From: Helicobacteraceae bacterium
Lineage (GTDB): Bacteria > Campylobacterota > Campylobacteria > Campylobacterales > SZUA-545
Assembly (NCBI GenBank): GCA_031286325.1
Contig: JAITUT010000022.1
Coordinates: forward strand, 1-33,963
Length of the DNA stretch: 33,963 nucleotides
Direction: 5' to 3'
Shown here: in pieces, positions 8,205 to 25,124 of the stretch
Layout: each line of letters starts with the position of its first letter
How positions within the stretch are numbered: the stretch's first letter is position 1
Translations under genes and position numbers: made by a program
Notes under the pieces: generated by a model
The model's database searches: none
What the model saw: only the letters and a program-made list of their open reading frames with translations
What the model was told of the DNA's origin: nothing

Positions 8205-8720
8205 TTACTGCAGAACGTTTATTTCCGCGCGGCGATTTTGCCGGAAGCAGTCGCTCGTGGATTGAGCGCAAACGGGGTTAGACTCGCCGTAGCTAATGAG
8301 GTTTAAGCGATCTGCGCTTACGCCTATGGATACAAGCGCGTCTTGAACGGCTTTCGCGCGTTTCAAGCCGAGAGCGTAGTTATACTCTTCGGCGCCGCGT
8401 TCGTCGCAATTGCCCTCAATGCGGAAAGAGATAGAGGGATTCGAATTCACCACTTTGGAAACGATATCCTTCACTTTGGAAGCGATCTCATTGACCGTGC
8501 CTTGTTGATCCGCGCGAAGCGTGTAGCTGTCAAAGTCAAAATAAACTACCGCCAACTTTGTGCCTACAGTAGGCGTCGCCGCCGTATCTTTGCGCGTCTG
8601 ATTCTGTTCAACGGTTTGCTCCGGTTGAGCGTTATCGCTCGTAACGGGCTCCGGTTGAGCGCAACCGCCGAGCGCCAAAAGCGCTGCGGCAACTATGCCA
8701 GAGAAAAGGTATTTTCTCAT
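8205..8720 (-). CDS. pal: Peptidoglycan-associated lipoprotein Pal (Omp18)
   Basis: A 171-residue outer-membrane lipoprotein. A lipobox LGGC puts the lipidated Cys at residue 20; an OmpA-like peptidoglycan-binding domain follows, with VVYFDFDSYTLRADQQ, IEGNCDERGAEEYN, ALGLKRAKAVQDAL and a terminal NRRAEI. Pal tethers the outer membrane to peptidoglycan and binds TolB. I start it at ATG 8718-8720, after AGGAGAAG, because this places the signal peptide correctly; the frame is open 21 codons further upstream, into a decayed tolB fragment. In the related genomes pal directly follows tolB; here a cassette separates them. Confidence 0.95.
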   Translation of the reverse strand: MRKYLFSGIVAAALLALGGCAQPEPVTSDNAQPEQTVEQNQTRKDTAATPTVGTKLAVVYFDFDSYTLRADQQGTVNEIASKVKDIVSKVVNSNPSISFRIEGNCDERGAEEYNYALGLKRAKAVQDALVSIGVSADRLNLISYGESNPVCAQSTSDCFRQNRRAEINVLQ

Positions 8721-8780
8721 TTCTTCTCCTTCTCCTTTGTTTGGATAAAACTCGTAATGATACCCAAATTTAACTTTTAT

Positions 8781-8855
8781 CAATCTTATCGCTTGAATGG
8801 AGCCGCTTAATGGAAATAAGAAGCTTTTGTTATAAGAGTAACCCCACGATCGCGA
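8781..8855 (-). pseudogene. Duplicated 3' end of tolB
   Basis: About 73 bases match the last codons of tolB at 9732-9804 at roughly 80 percent identity. Read on the minus strand, YNKSFLFPLSGSIQAI is preserved exactly as in TolB, although bracketed by frameshifts. It lies just before pal, where the tolB end would sit in the ancestral order. It is therefore a second, non-functional copy of the tolB tail left when the YwqK-like cassette entered. Confidence 0.8.
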
Positions 8856-8958
8856 TTTTTCGCGTATCGCCCTCTAAAACGCTAAACGCGACAAACGCGC
8901 TTTAAGCAAATTTCGCTAAATTTCACGCAATTTTTCACCAACGCAAAAAGGAGACAAG

Positions 8959-9258
8959 ATGAAAAGGTTTTTGATCGCTATCTTGCTAACGGCGGCGGCT
9001 TTGCTGGCGACGGCGTGCCAAAACCCAAACGAAGATTATAAGGTTTATGGCGTGGGCGAAACGGCGCGCTTTGACAACGGCAAGTGCTTGGATATGAAAG
9101 GTAATTTGCTCTCAGGTAAAGCAGAGGTGCGAGCGCCAAACATACTCAAAGACGTTACGGTCGTAGCACTCTGTATTGACGGCGAGGTGATAGAGACGCG
9201 CGGCTACGATAAGGAGAGCGGCAAGCTGCTACACACCGCTAAACTAGTAAAGGATTAA
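8959..9258 (+). CDS. Truncated YwqK/MORN-like lipoprotein
   Basis: A 99-codon frame with a lipoprotein signal (KRFLIAILLTAAALLATAC, Cys at residue 20) followed by repeats of the MORN-variant kind found in YwqK-type proteins: CLDMKGNLLSGKAEVR and CIDGEVIETRGYDKESGKL. The reading frame stops early; the rest of the same repeat pattern continues downstream in other frames, so this is the 5' part of a broken gene. AAGGAGA lies seven bases before the ATG. It is transcribed against its neighbours pal and tolB, and sits between two copies of the tolB 3' end. YwqK relatives are sometimes annotated as toxin-antitoxin proteins, but nothing here shows that role. Confidence 0.6.
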   Translation: MKRFLIAILLTAAALLATACQNPNEDYKVYGVGETARFDNGKCLDMKGNLLSGKAEVRAPNILKDVTVVALCIDGEVIETRGYDKESGKLLHTAKLVKD

Positions 9259-9486
9259 GCGTTTCTATGAGAGCGGCAAGTTAAAAGAAGAGTGCGCGTG
9301 GAAAAACGGCGCGCAAGAGGGCGAATCGAAAGTTTACATGGAAAACGGCAAAATTTTCGGCGTATTTACATATAACAATGATAAAGCAATAAGTAGCGTT
9401 TGCCATAAAACAAACGGTGAAAAAAGTCTTTAACCAAAGCCGAATTAGAAAATTGGGATAACGAAATCAAGATAACTTGCGAGTGA
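9259..9486 (+). pseudogene. Remainder of the YwqK/MORN-like gene
   Basis: After the TAA of the preceding frame, a shifted frame carries RFYESGKLKEECAWKNG and YMENGKIFGVFTYNND, the typical MORN-variant repeats, then CHKTNGEKSL to TAA at about 9433. A second shift continues with KAELENWDNEIKITCE to TGA 9484-9486, a plausible natural C-terminus. Two frameshifts, at about 9250-9262 and 9420-9433, therefore break one gene of roughly 175 codons. Confidence 0.7.
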
Positions 9487-9727
9487 GTAGCGCGATCGTT
9501 AATTGCGGCTTGCGATCGGTAATTTCGTTATTGCGCCGAACAATAGATAACACAGGCGAACATAGTTCGCCACTACGGTTCGCCCGATTCTGCGACAGGC
9601 GGCGTTTAAGAATCGCAGAAGCGCGGAGAACCGCAAAGAGAAAAAGAAACCCGCAACCTAAGATCGCTTTTGATCGTCAATAAGATTGCGGGTTAAAGCC
9701 CCACAGCGGGGGAAAAATTCACGCGAG
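9487..9727. other. Hairpin-rich gap between the YwqK relic and tolB
   Basis: No gene is seen. Three inverted repeats stand out: GCGAAC at 9556-9561 with GTTCGC at 9565-9570; TTCTGCGA at 9588-9595 with TCGCAGAA at 9613-9620; and AACCCGCAA at 9648-9656 with TTGCGGGTT at 9686-9694, whose loop holds two GATC sites. A CCCC/GGGG stem at 9699-9711 lies nearest the tolB stop and could end the leftward tolB transcript, but no clear T-run supports a strong terminator. Confidence 0.5.
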
Positions 9728-10990
9728 TTACCAATCTATCGCTTGAATAGAGCCGCTTAACGGAAAAAGAAAACTTTTGTTGTAAGGCAACCTTATGATC
9801 GCGAGCGCGCTCTCTTTGCCGCGTCTGATCTCTTTTGTGTGTAAGATCGTATCGCCCGAAGTGCTGAAACGGGGGAAATTGTTTTTGCCAGTCGTGGTGA
9901 GCTGGCGAATATAATCGCTCTTGGTCGAAACTAGGTAAAGGTTAAAGGTGTTTTCCGCGAACTCGCTGTCGGTGTCGCGGCTGACGAAAACCGCGTAATC
10001 TTTCCAAGTCGCGATGTAGCTGTTGTTGCGCCCTTTGAAGATAAACTGGATCGCGCTATTCGGATCGCCGATCTTCGCGTAGAAAATTTCGGGATAACCA
10101 TGCCGATCGCTCACGAAAACGAAGGCGTTTTCGCCGTCTATATAACGTCCGTTCACATCAATGCCGCGATTGTTGGTAAGTTGCGTTAATTTCCTTGAGC
10201 GCACATCGTATTCGTAAATATCAGGCTGATCGTCAGGAGCCATTGTGAGGAGTAATTTGTTGCCGTCTTTACTCACATCGGAGCAGACGAGCATACCCTC
10301 GCTCTCAATAATTTTTGTCTTTTTGCCAGTGTAACGTTCCACGCGGTATAAAGTTGGCTTGCCCTGATATTGCGTGTAATAATACGCGCTCTGATCGGCG
10401 TTCGCCCACTTCGGGAATACATTAAAGCCGCCCTTGACGACCGCGAGGCGGTATGTGAGCGAGTAGTCGGCGATCATAATCTCCGTAGATTTTTGCCCCA
10501 CTTGGCGCGACAAAAGGACATTACGCGCGATCCACTCCATATTCACGCCCATTTTGTGCGAGAGATCGCGCACTAAATAGTGCGCCAAAAAGACATAACG
10601 ATCCTCGCTGGGGACTTTGTATTTTTGCGACCAAAGCTGCCTTTTGCCTCTGATGTCATAAACTTGCGCGTCAATGCCTACCTCTTTGTTGTCGTTATAG
10701 ACCGAATAGCGCACGAGTTGGTGCAGGTTTGAGTTAACGTAGACCGCGCTTGTGTATGGTTCGCTAGGGCTTGCGCCTTGCGGCGGCTGCACTACATTAT
10801 AGAATCCAGCGACTTTCAAATCCGCCTCGATCATCTTGCCCACTTTTTGATCCAAGTCGCTTCTTACCGCGTCTTTCGACTCTACGGCGATATTTAGGTT
10901 GCTGCCGACCCCTTTAATAATCTCAATAGTCGCGTCTATCGCGAATAGCGGCAAAACCGCGCACATTAAAAAGACCAAAATTTGTTTCAT
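9728..10990 (-). CDS. tolB: Tol-Pal system protein TolB
   Basis: A 420-residue periplasmic protein with a signal peptide (MKQILVFLMCAVLPLFA), an N-terminal domain (about 20-165, with DLKVAGFYNV), and a C-terminal beta-propeller shown by repeats such as YEYDVRSRKLTQLTNNRG and NAFVFVSDRHGYPEIF. TolB links TolA and Pal in the envelope-constriction machine. Length is normal. Its start overlaps the tolA stop by four bases (ATGA), as expected in this operon. Its 3' end is duplicated before pal, about 0.95 kb away. Confidence 0.95.
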   Translation of the reverse strand: MKQILVFLMCAVLPLFAIDATIEIIKGVGSNLNIAVESKDAVRSDLDQKVGKMIEADLKVAGFYNVVQPPQGASPSEPYTSAVYVNSNLHQLVRYSVYNDNKEVGIDAQVYDIRGKRQLWSQKYKVPSEDRYVFLAHYLVRDLSHKMGVNMEWIARNVLLSRQVGQKSTEIMIADYSLTYRLAVVKGGFNVFPKWANADQSAYYYTQYQGKPTLYRVERYTGKKTKIIESEGMLVCSDVSKDGNKLLLTMAPDDQPDIYEYDVRSRKLTQLTNNRGIDVNGRYIDGENAFVFVSDRHGYPEIFYAKIGDPNSAIQFIFKGRNNSYIATWKDYAVFVSRDTDSEFAENTFNLYLVSTKSDYIRQLTTTGKNNFPRFSTSGDTILHTKEIRRGKESALAIIRLPYNKSFLFPLSGSIQAIDW

Positions 10991-23540: not shown

Positions 23541-25124
23541 TCAATTAGCCTTGCAAAAACGTTTGTCAAGCTCGCAAGCTTTCGCCCGATCTTTCGTCGC
23601 TTTATTGTTATCGCCTAGCTTTTCATAAGCAAGTCCGCGATTATTATAAGTTTCCGCAATATACGGATTAGCCTCAATCCTTTGCGGATAAAGCTCAATC
23701 GCTTTCGTGAAATCCGCGATCGCTTTATTATGATTGCCCAAATTACTGTAAGCTACTCCGCGACTATCATAAGCAAAAGCATTATTTGGGTCAATTTCAA
23801 TTGCTTTTGTGCAATCCGATACCGCTTTATTATTATCGCCCAACTTAGTGTAAGCAAACCCGCGATTATTGTAAGCCATTGAATTCTTTGGATCAATTTC
23901 AATCACTTTTGTGTAATCAGCAATCTCTTTTTTATGATCGCCCAACATACCGTAAGTGCTTCCGCGATCAGCGTAAGCACTCGCAATATACGGATTAGCC
24001 CCAATCGTTTTCGGATGAAGCTCAACCGCTTTTGTGAAATCCACGATCGCTTTATTATAATCGCCTAAACTAGCGTAAGCCTTTCCGCGATTATGGTAAG
24101 CAAACGCATTATTGTTTGGATCAATTTCAATCGCTTTTGTGTAATCCGCGATCGCTTTATTATAATCGCCTAAATTACTGTAAGCGTTTCCACGATTAAA
24201 GTAAGCGCCATCCTTATTCGGATCAATTTCAATCGCTTTTGTGTATTCGCCTACAGCTGTCTGATAATCCCTAGCCGCAAAAGCCTTAAATCCTCTGTCA
24301 AAAGCTTCTCTTGCTTTATCGTCGTTGTTCGCGCTCTGTTGCCAAAAGCATTGGGTTCGCTCCTCGTTTGTGAGGTAGTAATTGGGTCTTGCTTTGTCGC
24401 TCTCTTGTCCAAAAAGATAAACAAAAATTCTAATTGCGCAATTTGGGTTCCAATTCCAGTAATTTATGAGCAGAGAGCTAGACATAGACCAAATAGTCTC
24501 TGGTTTTGTTTTGCCTGTTCGATCTGGCTTTAATATATTCATAGAAATATATTTATCAGTTTCCGAAGAAGTGTAGCTTTGCGTAACGGGAACTTGCGTA
24601 TTGCTCTGCCCGGAATAAAACCTGCCGCCCACAAAACCTGAGTGGTATGTGGTTTGGTTTTGATAGCTTGTGTAGGTGTTGGTGCTCGTATAAGTTTTTT
24701 GATCCAAACCAAAAATAATCGCGTAATCTAAATCATTATCCGCTGGGTTTCCCACATTTAAGCCAAAGAAGCGCATATTATCTTCAAGCATACGCGCGAA
24801 CTTCTTATCTTCAACGGTCGCTTGATCTCTTAAAAAAACGGCTATTTTGCCGCTTCTATTAAACGAGTGAGAGTGGTCTTTCTCCGCGTTTACATTAACT
24901 GTAGGTCTGACCGGGGCGCAACCGCTGAAAAGTAGCGTAGCGATCGCGATTAAAAAAGCGAACTTTTTCGCGGTTAAAGGGAAGCGGCGGCTAGGCTCGG
25001 CTAGAGCTGTGCTGTGCTGTGCTGTGCTGTGCTGTGCTGTGCTGTGCTGTGCTGTGCTGTGCTGTGCTGTGCTGTGCTGTGCTGTGCTGTAAACATTTGA
25101 ACTCCTTTTGTAAGCTAGAATCAT
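23541..25124 (-). CDS. TPR-repeat lipoprotein with frame-switching repeat tract
   Basis: As read here the frame has 527 codons. Residues 12-40 are encoded by the pentanucleotide tract (STAQH repeated). A lipoprotein signal follows (FAFLIAIATLLFSGC, Cys at 69), then a domain of unknown function (about 70-265, rich in Thr/Tyr/Ser; it recalls DUF4136-type lipoprotein domains), then about seven 34-residue TPRs (about 275-520), each with a pattern such as AYNNRGFAYTKLGDNNKA and an IEIDPN end. Nothing can start between the tract and the signal peptide (no ATG, GTG or TTG in frame), so translation must cross the repeats. The upstream ATG at 25122-25124 lacks a ribosome site; the well-placed ATG at 25094-25096 is out of frame at 17 repeats. 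Surface or periplasmic protein-protein interaction is likely; its partner is unknown. Confidence 0.8.
   Translation of the reverse strand: MILAYKRSSNVYSTAQHSTAQHSTAQHSTAQHSTAQHSTALAEPSRRFPLTAKKFAFLIAIATLLFSGCAPVRPTVNVNAEKDHSHSFNRSGKIAVFLRDQATVEDKKFARMLEDNMRFFGLNVGNPADNDLDYAIIFGLDQKTYTSTNTYTSYQNQTTYHSGFVGGRFYSGQSNTQVPVTQSYTSSETDKYISMNILKPDRTGKTKPETIWSMSSSLLINYWNWNPNCAIRIFVYLFGQESDKARPNYYLTNEERTQCFWQQSANNDDKAREAFDRGFKAFAARDYQTAVGEYTKAIEIDPNKDGAYFNRGNAYSNLGDYNKAIADYTKAIEIDPNNNAFAYHNRGKAYASLGDYNKAIVDFTKAVELHPKTIGANPYIASAYADRGSTYGMLGDHKKEIADYTKVIEIDPKNSMAYNNRGFAYTKLGDNNKAVSDCTKAIEIDPNNAFAYDSRGVAYSNLGNHNKAIADFTKAIELYPQRIEANPYIAETYNNRGLAYEKLGDNNKATKDRAKACELDKRFCKAN
25006..25090 (-). repeat. Pentanucleotide microsatellite (ACAGC)17
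   Basis: Seventeen perfect head-to-tail copies, GCTGT on the plus strand and ACAGC on the coding strand, lie inside the 5' coding region of the TPR lipoprotein. Five is not a multiple of three, so gain or loss of a unit by strand slippage shifts the frame. All three frames of the tract encode the same cyclic peptide (S-T-A-Q-H) without stops. The analogous known case is the CTCTT tract in neisserial opa genes. Confidence 0.97.

Follow-up and report, generated by a model that had tools for sequence, protein, structure and literature searches.

In the stretch of DNA analysed here (the "window", 33,963 nt, corresponding to contig C88 of a draft Helicobacteraceae genome) tolB and pal are ~1.0 kb apart, and between them lies a broken copy of a gene belonging to a lineage-specific MORN_2 family, flanked on either side by a version of the tolB 3′ end. 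To judge from the location of these two versions and from their counterparts in relatives, the pal-proximal copy is the old end and the intact end at 9728 is the added one. The arrangement was probably generated by a microhomology-mediated template switch that copied a paralog together with REP-like DNA into tolB, recopying the tolB tail.

The tolB-pal locus and its repeated gene end

The source genome (G000) comprises 2.05 Mb in 96 contigs and is 98% complete; most of the named relatives of its tolB are MAGs assigned to the Helicobacteraceae, and the style of their isolate names suggests that the host may be a termite gut. The features of the locus are listed in Table 1. An Rfam search of the window yielded no match. 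Elsewhere in the window (23541-25124) there is a TPR-repeat-like ORF with a short tandem repeat (STAQHSTAQH...) at its start.

Table 1. Features of the tolB-pal locus (positions refer to the window)
Feature	Position	Strand	Evidence
pal (peptidoglycan-associated lipoprotein, OmpA domain), intact	8205-8720	-	Pfam OmpA 3e-17; orthologs adjoin tolB in relatives
Native pal leader with motif TTTGGGTATCATTA, matching TTGGRTATGATA upstream of pal in relatives	8721-8776	-	Comparison with G002, G003, G004, G005 and G006
Relic of the ancestral tolB 3′ end, frameshifted, stop-equivalent at 8777-8779	8777-8855	-	~82% identity to 9728-9804; near-native distance to pal; higher evolutionary rate than the functional end
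Left junction, 8-nt microhomology GATCGCGA common to tolB (9797-9804) and the MORN-family leader	8848-8855	+	Read from the sequence; paralog homology
Conserved leader and ribosome-binding site of the MORN-protein family	8856-8958	+	70-90% identity to >20 loci of G000
5′ part of a secreted/lipoprotein MORN_2-family gene, 99 codons followed by a premature stop	8959-9258	+	64% protein identity to residues 1-82 of the intact C13 paralog; stop context common to the C41 fragment
Decayed 3′ part of the MORN_2-family gene, ending TGC GAG TGA	9259-9486	+	48% identity to the C-terminus of the C13 paralog, 5 in-frame stops; at most 85% DNA identity to other paralogs
Dispersed REP-like repeat with palindrome GGCGAACATAGTTCGCC at 9555-9571	9542-9611	+	Many copies in G000
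Hairpin followed by a T-rich tract, probable tolB terminator, within the added DNA	9648-9694	-	Inverted repeat; RNA fold
Functional (duplicated) tolB 3′ end, stop codon 9728-9730	9728-9804	-	Encodes the family-typical end SIQAIDW followed by the stop
tolB, intact	9731-10990	-	Pfam TolB_N 2e-7; full-length orthologs of at most 71% identity in the family

The repeated stretch corresponds to the last 77-79 nt of tolB and has the same orientation in both copies; a self-search aligned the two at 82.3% identity over 79 nt (E 9e-14). At this level of similarity (82%, E about 1e-13) a chance origin of the repeat can, on the alignment, be regarded as excluded. Furthermore, only five non-dispersed local direct repeats of similar size occur in ~228 kb of G000, the tolB repeat being among them and the only one of the five that also flanks a MORN-family copy. 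An earlier note on this DNA had described a recurrence of the tolB 3′ end near pal at ~80% identity and with the same peptide. The recurrence proved real and the peptide YNKSFLFPLSGSIQAI is indeed encoded by both tails, but the relic carries a 1-nt insertion on either side of it, so that a TolB end is no longer encoded there.

The empty site in relatives and the relative age of the two tails

In the congeners G002, G003, G004 and G005 the tolB stop codon is separated from the pal ATG by 71-73 nt, and the tolB-pal spacer is short also in G011 and G014. The relatives whose junction was read have a single tolB end and lack the insert, and a search for the same insertion in 14 other members of the family found none. 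In the window the relic tail lies 57 nt from the pal ATG, as against 71-73 nt in the congeners having the empty site; this near-native distance and the equivalence of TTTGGGTATCATTA to the TTGGRTATGATA of the congeners argue that the relic represents the ancestral tail.

The two tails of the window are 81-82% identical to each other, whereas either one is 65-78% identical to the tails of the nearest relatives (G002, G003 and G006); as both are closer to one another than to any relative, the duplication most likely arose within the lineage to which G000 belongs. Nine alignment columns are common to the two tails and absent from the same three relatives, three or four of them being located at the edge of the junction. 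At 10 of the 15 columns at which the two tails differ, the functional one agrees better with G002, G003 and G006, and the relic has most likely evolved without constraint since the event.

Taken with the empty site, these comparisons bear out much of what the earlier note had proposed, namely that DNA was inserted into the 3′ end of tolB, that the diverged copy near pal is the old end, that the functional end may have arrived with the insert and that relatives should possess an empty site with one tolB end. The two patterns which it had named as contrary to its reading, i.e., two copies at the depth of the family or no empty site in any relative, were looked for and neither was found.

The spacer has also changed in G006 (L023, G006:C26), where tolB and pal are 379 nt apart owing to an unrelated expansion. 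About 300 nt of single-copy DNA were gained there independently and the tail is not duplicated, which indicates that the tolB-pal spacer tolerates growth.

The insert as a broken member of a MORN_2 family

The DNA lying between the two tails is not a foreign island, since it has matches at about 31 dispersed loci (fragments included) of G000 itself. The oppositely oriented, decayed gene and the hairpin-rich stretch reported by the earlier note are both present, in the form of a 99-codon ORF, five in-frame stops, a palindrome and a strong hairpin. As for the YwqK-like lipoprotein identity that the note had assigned to the gene, the 99-aa ORF by itself has no match in Pfam or NCBIfam and MORN_2 repeats (PF07661) are undetectable in it, but these repeats are present in the intact paralogs located elsewhere in G000, from which the MORN (YwqK-like) identity of the window gene is derived. 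The best intact paralog is a 440-aa ORF on contig C13 that adjoins an rplQ-like gene and contains nine MORN_2 stretches (E 1.8e-64), a feature shared with the secreted proteins carrying PF07661 repeats. In about 20 copies the ORF is intact, with a common signal-peptide start and a cysteine at the C-terminus; examples of family loci are L057:1917-3278, L053:3073-3675 and L061:3327-4231. A distant similarity exists to NCBIfam NF033566 (LIC20035 family adhesin), the score being 89 bits as compared with a cut-off of 250. Compared with the known MORN_2 proteins, the family is lineage-specific, has ~30 copies, a conserved leader and a C-terminal cysteine, and its copy in the window is broken; of six congeners one has distant matches only and the other five have none.

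A fragment on C41 (L067:1894-2141) is 5′-truncated and has the premature-stop context AAAGGATTAAGCG in common with the window copy. Since this fragment shares the premature stop and its homology starts inside the gene, it appears that the copying of damaged pieces of the family took place at the DNA level and that the ends of the pieces were arbitrary.

That duplication of gene ends might be a general trait of the family was considered and rejected: when the flanks of 29 copies were compared, tolB was the sole gene-end case. A 77-nt repeat flanking the C13 copy turned out to belong to the dispersed intergenic repeats, as do the remaining flank matches unless they are short and due to chance. 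The earlier note had suggested looking for other YwqK genes flanked by duplicated gene ends; none was found among the 28 other copies.

The palindrome at 9555-9571 is an imperfect form of a longer one, GGGCGAACNNNGTTCGCCC, of which 65 exact copies exist in G000 and none in 14 relatives. Twenty of the 50 palindromes listed are no more than 300 nt away from a MORN-family locus, compared with the 1.1 expected by length alone (uncorrected for intergenic bias), an enrichment due in part to the fact that the repeat belongs to the 3′ flank of the family. A short palindrome in 65 copies, placed between genes where examined, recalls the REP-type palindromic repeats; the difference from a RAYT/REP system is that, although the palindromes are present, a search of G000 for the Y1 transposase (Y1_Tnp/RAYT, PF01797) gave no match.

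The junctions

At the left junction the homology with six paralogs begins at GATCGCGA, yet at least three of them (on C13, C94 and C55) match further to the left, and the join is therefore situated inside the family leader and not at the boundary of an element. The octamer is frequent in G000, occurring once per ~1.07 kb on either strand, so that finding it at the join is no more than suggestive. At the right junction the added tail starts 0-3 nt from the stop codon, leaving room for a microhomology of at most about 3 nt. The 116 nt preceding it (9612-9727), which include the probable terminator, are unique in G000 save for short repeats on C55, and no donor locus joining a MORN gene to the 9612-9727 flank was found in G000.

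The point at which homology ends on the left differs among the family copies, from 8846 to 8947 and beyond, and the right limits vary too. A transposon or cassette with fixed ends was rejected on the grounds that the ends of the copies are ragged, with start and stop bases differing from copy to copy. Likewise rejected were the terminal inverted repeats AACGATCGCG and CGCGATCGTT as the ends of an element, given that homology runs past the right one and that GATCGC words are very frequent. Such words occur about once per 162 nt, both strands counted (228 kb of G000), and constitute a possible source of microhomology.

Origin of the rearrangement

From the arrangement of the locus we infer a template switch, and one event in place of two. 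Replication or repair would have left tolB at GATCGCGA, ~77 nt before the stop codon, and copying would have resumed on a MORN_2-family paralog bearing the same octamer in its leader; this paralog and the adjacent REP-like and terminator sequences, some 0.9 kb in all, would have been copied, with a subsequent return to tolB at the stop codon and a second copying of the tail. The expected product is an intact tolB with a new terminator, an inverted gene copy, the relic of the old tail, and pal with its promoter-like motif; decay of the relic tail and of the inserted gene would have followed later. Only events leaving a full tolB end could presumably survive. Since an insertion lacking the second tail would truncate tolB, the presence of a complete tail may reflect this survival bias, and the insertion may have been retained by selection because tolB stayed intact.

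Two properties of the locus, namely that the inserted DNA is a copy of sequence present elsewhere in G000 and that microhomology amounts to 8 nt on the left and at most about 3 nt on the right, bear on this proposal. Microhomology was found at all 40 of the amplification junctions sequenced in E. coli, 16 of the 40 being located in REP sequences, and for that organism a template switch onto DNA that had already been replicated has been put forward as a source of duplications (PMC3161906). The likeness to MMBIR as described in E. coli (PMC3161906) consists in the junction microhomology, the nearby duplication, the copied insert and the REP sequences in the vicinity; the difference is that the E. 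coli events are amplifications and rearrangements occurring under stress and mostly measured in kilobases, whereas here there is one old insertion, known from sequence alone, whose second junction shows little microhomology.

Some integrative elements rebuild the 3′ end of the gene into which they insert, e14 in icd being an example. The earlier note had read the locus in these terms, and the topology is indeed the one that a site-specific element of the tyrosine-recombinase type would leave, with an intact tolB end, an insert and, beyond it, the old end in a displaced position (for the att-site logic of ICEs/IMEs, see PMC7563491). Six tyrosine-recombinase-domain matches also exist in G000, but all PF00589 matches are on contigs other than that of the window, so the absence of an integrase noted earlier extends to the whole contig, and the insert itself has no integrase ORF. 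Moreover, what was inserted is a ragged member of a dispersed paralog family and the left junction displays microhomology, none of the 28 other family copies tested has a duplicated gene end, and no related insert occupies the tolB-pal site in relatives, so that neither the site nor gene ends in general are reused. The longest identical run in the 82% repeat is ~13 nt, which provides no clear att core, albeit a core may have decayed. An element targeting and restoring gene ends is thus very improbable here. Homologous recombination between the chromosomal tail and a DNA circle that combined the cassette with a tolB tail (Campbell-type integration) would yield exactly the topology of a single crossover, but it is quite unlikely, insofar as it requires a pre-existing circle in which tolB tail and cassette were already joined, the tail is short for RecA recombination and a second cassette of this kind was not found in G000.

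If the tolB tail suffered a staggered double-strand break whose two sides were filled in during capture of a stray paralog fragment, a target duplication of 77-79 nt would result, with the same outcome as the template switch but no need for one; this would accord with the duplication being one short stretch bounded by the stop codon and the microhomology. We consider such a capture unlikely, given that a 77-nt stagger is long, that capture of a double-stranded fragment requires an end-joining system and that no such duplication exists at any other family copy tested. Finally, since G000 is a fragmented draft rich in repeats, an assembly artefact joining two strains might be envisaged, but with repeats differing by 18%, a frameshifted relic and unique sequence on both flanks within a 34-kb contig, this is scarcely credible.

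Biological significance

Under the template-switch reading, the tolB junction looks like an unusual instance of ordinary rearrangement, i.e., a copying accident and not the work of a dedicated mobile element. It illustrates that an important envelope operon can absorb stray DNA of about 0.9 kb and yet keep tolB, which was preserved because the gene end was copied twice and because pal kept its promoter-like motif.

A larger question than the junction itself is posed by the multiplication, within one species, of one family of secreted repeat proteins together with a palindromic repeat. That the ~31 MORN-gene copies and the clustered REP-like palindromes have been spread by an undescribed, species-specific copying system is highly doubtful; were it true, the tolB event would be a visible footprint of that system, in which a gene and a palindrome were inserted and the target tail was duplicated. 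The mode by which gene family and palindrome have spread may be tested in sister strains.
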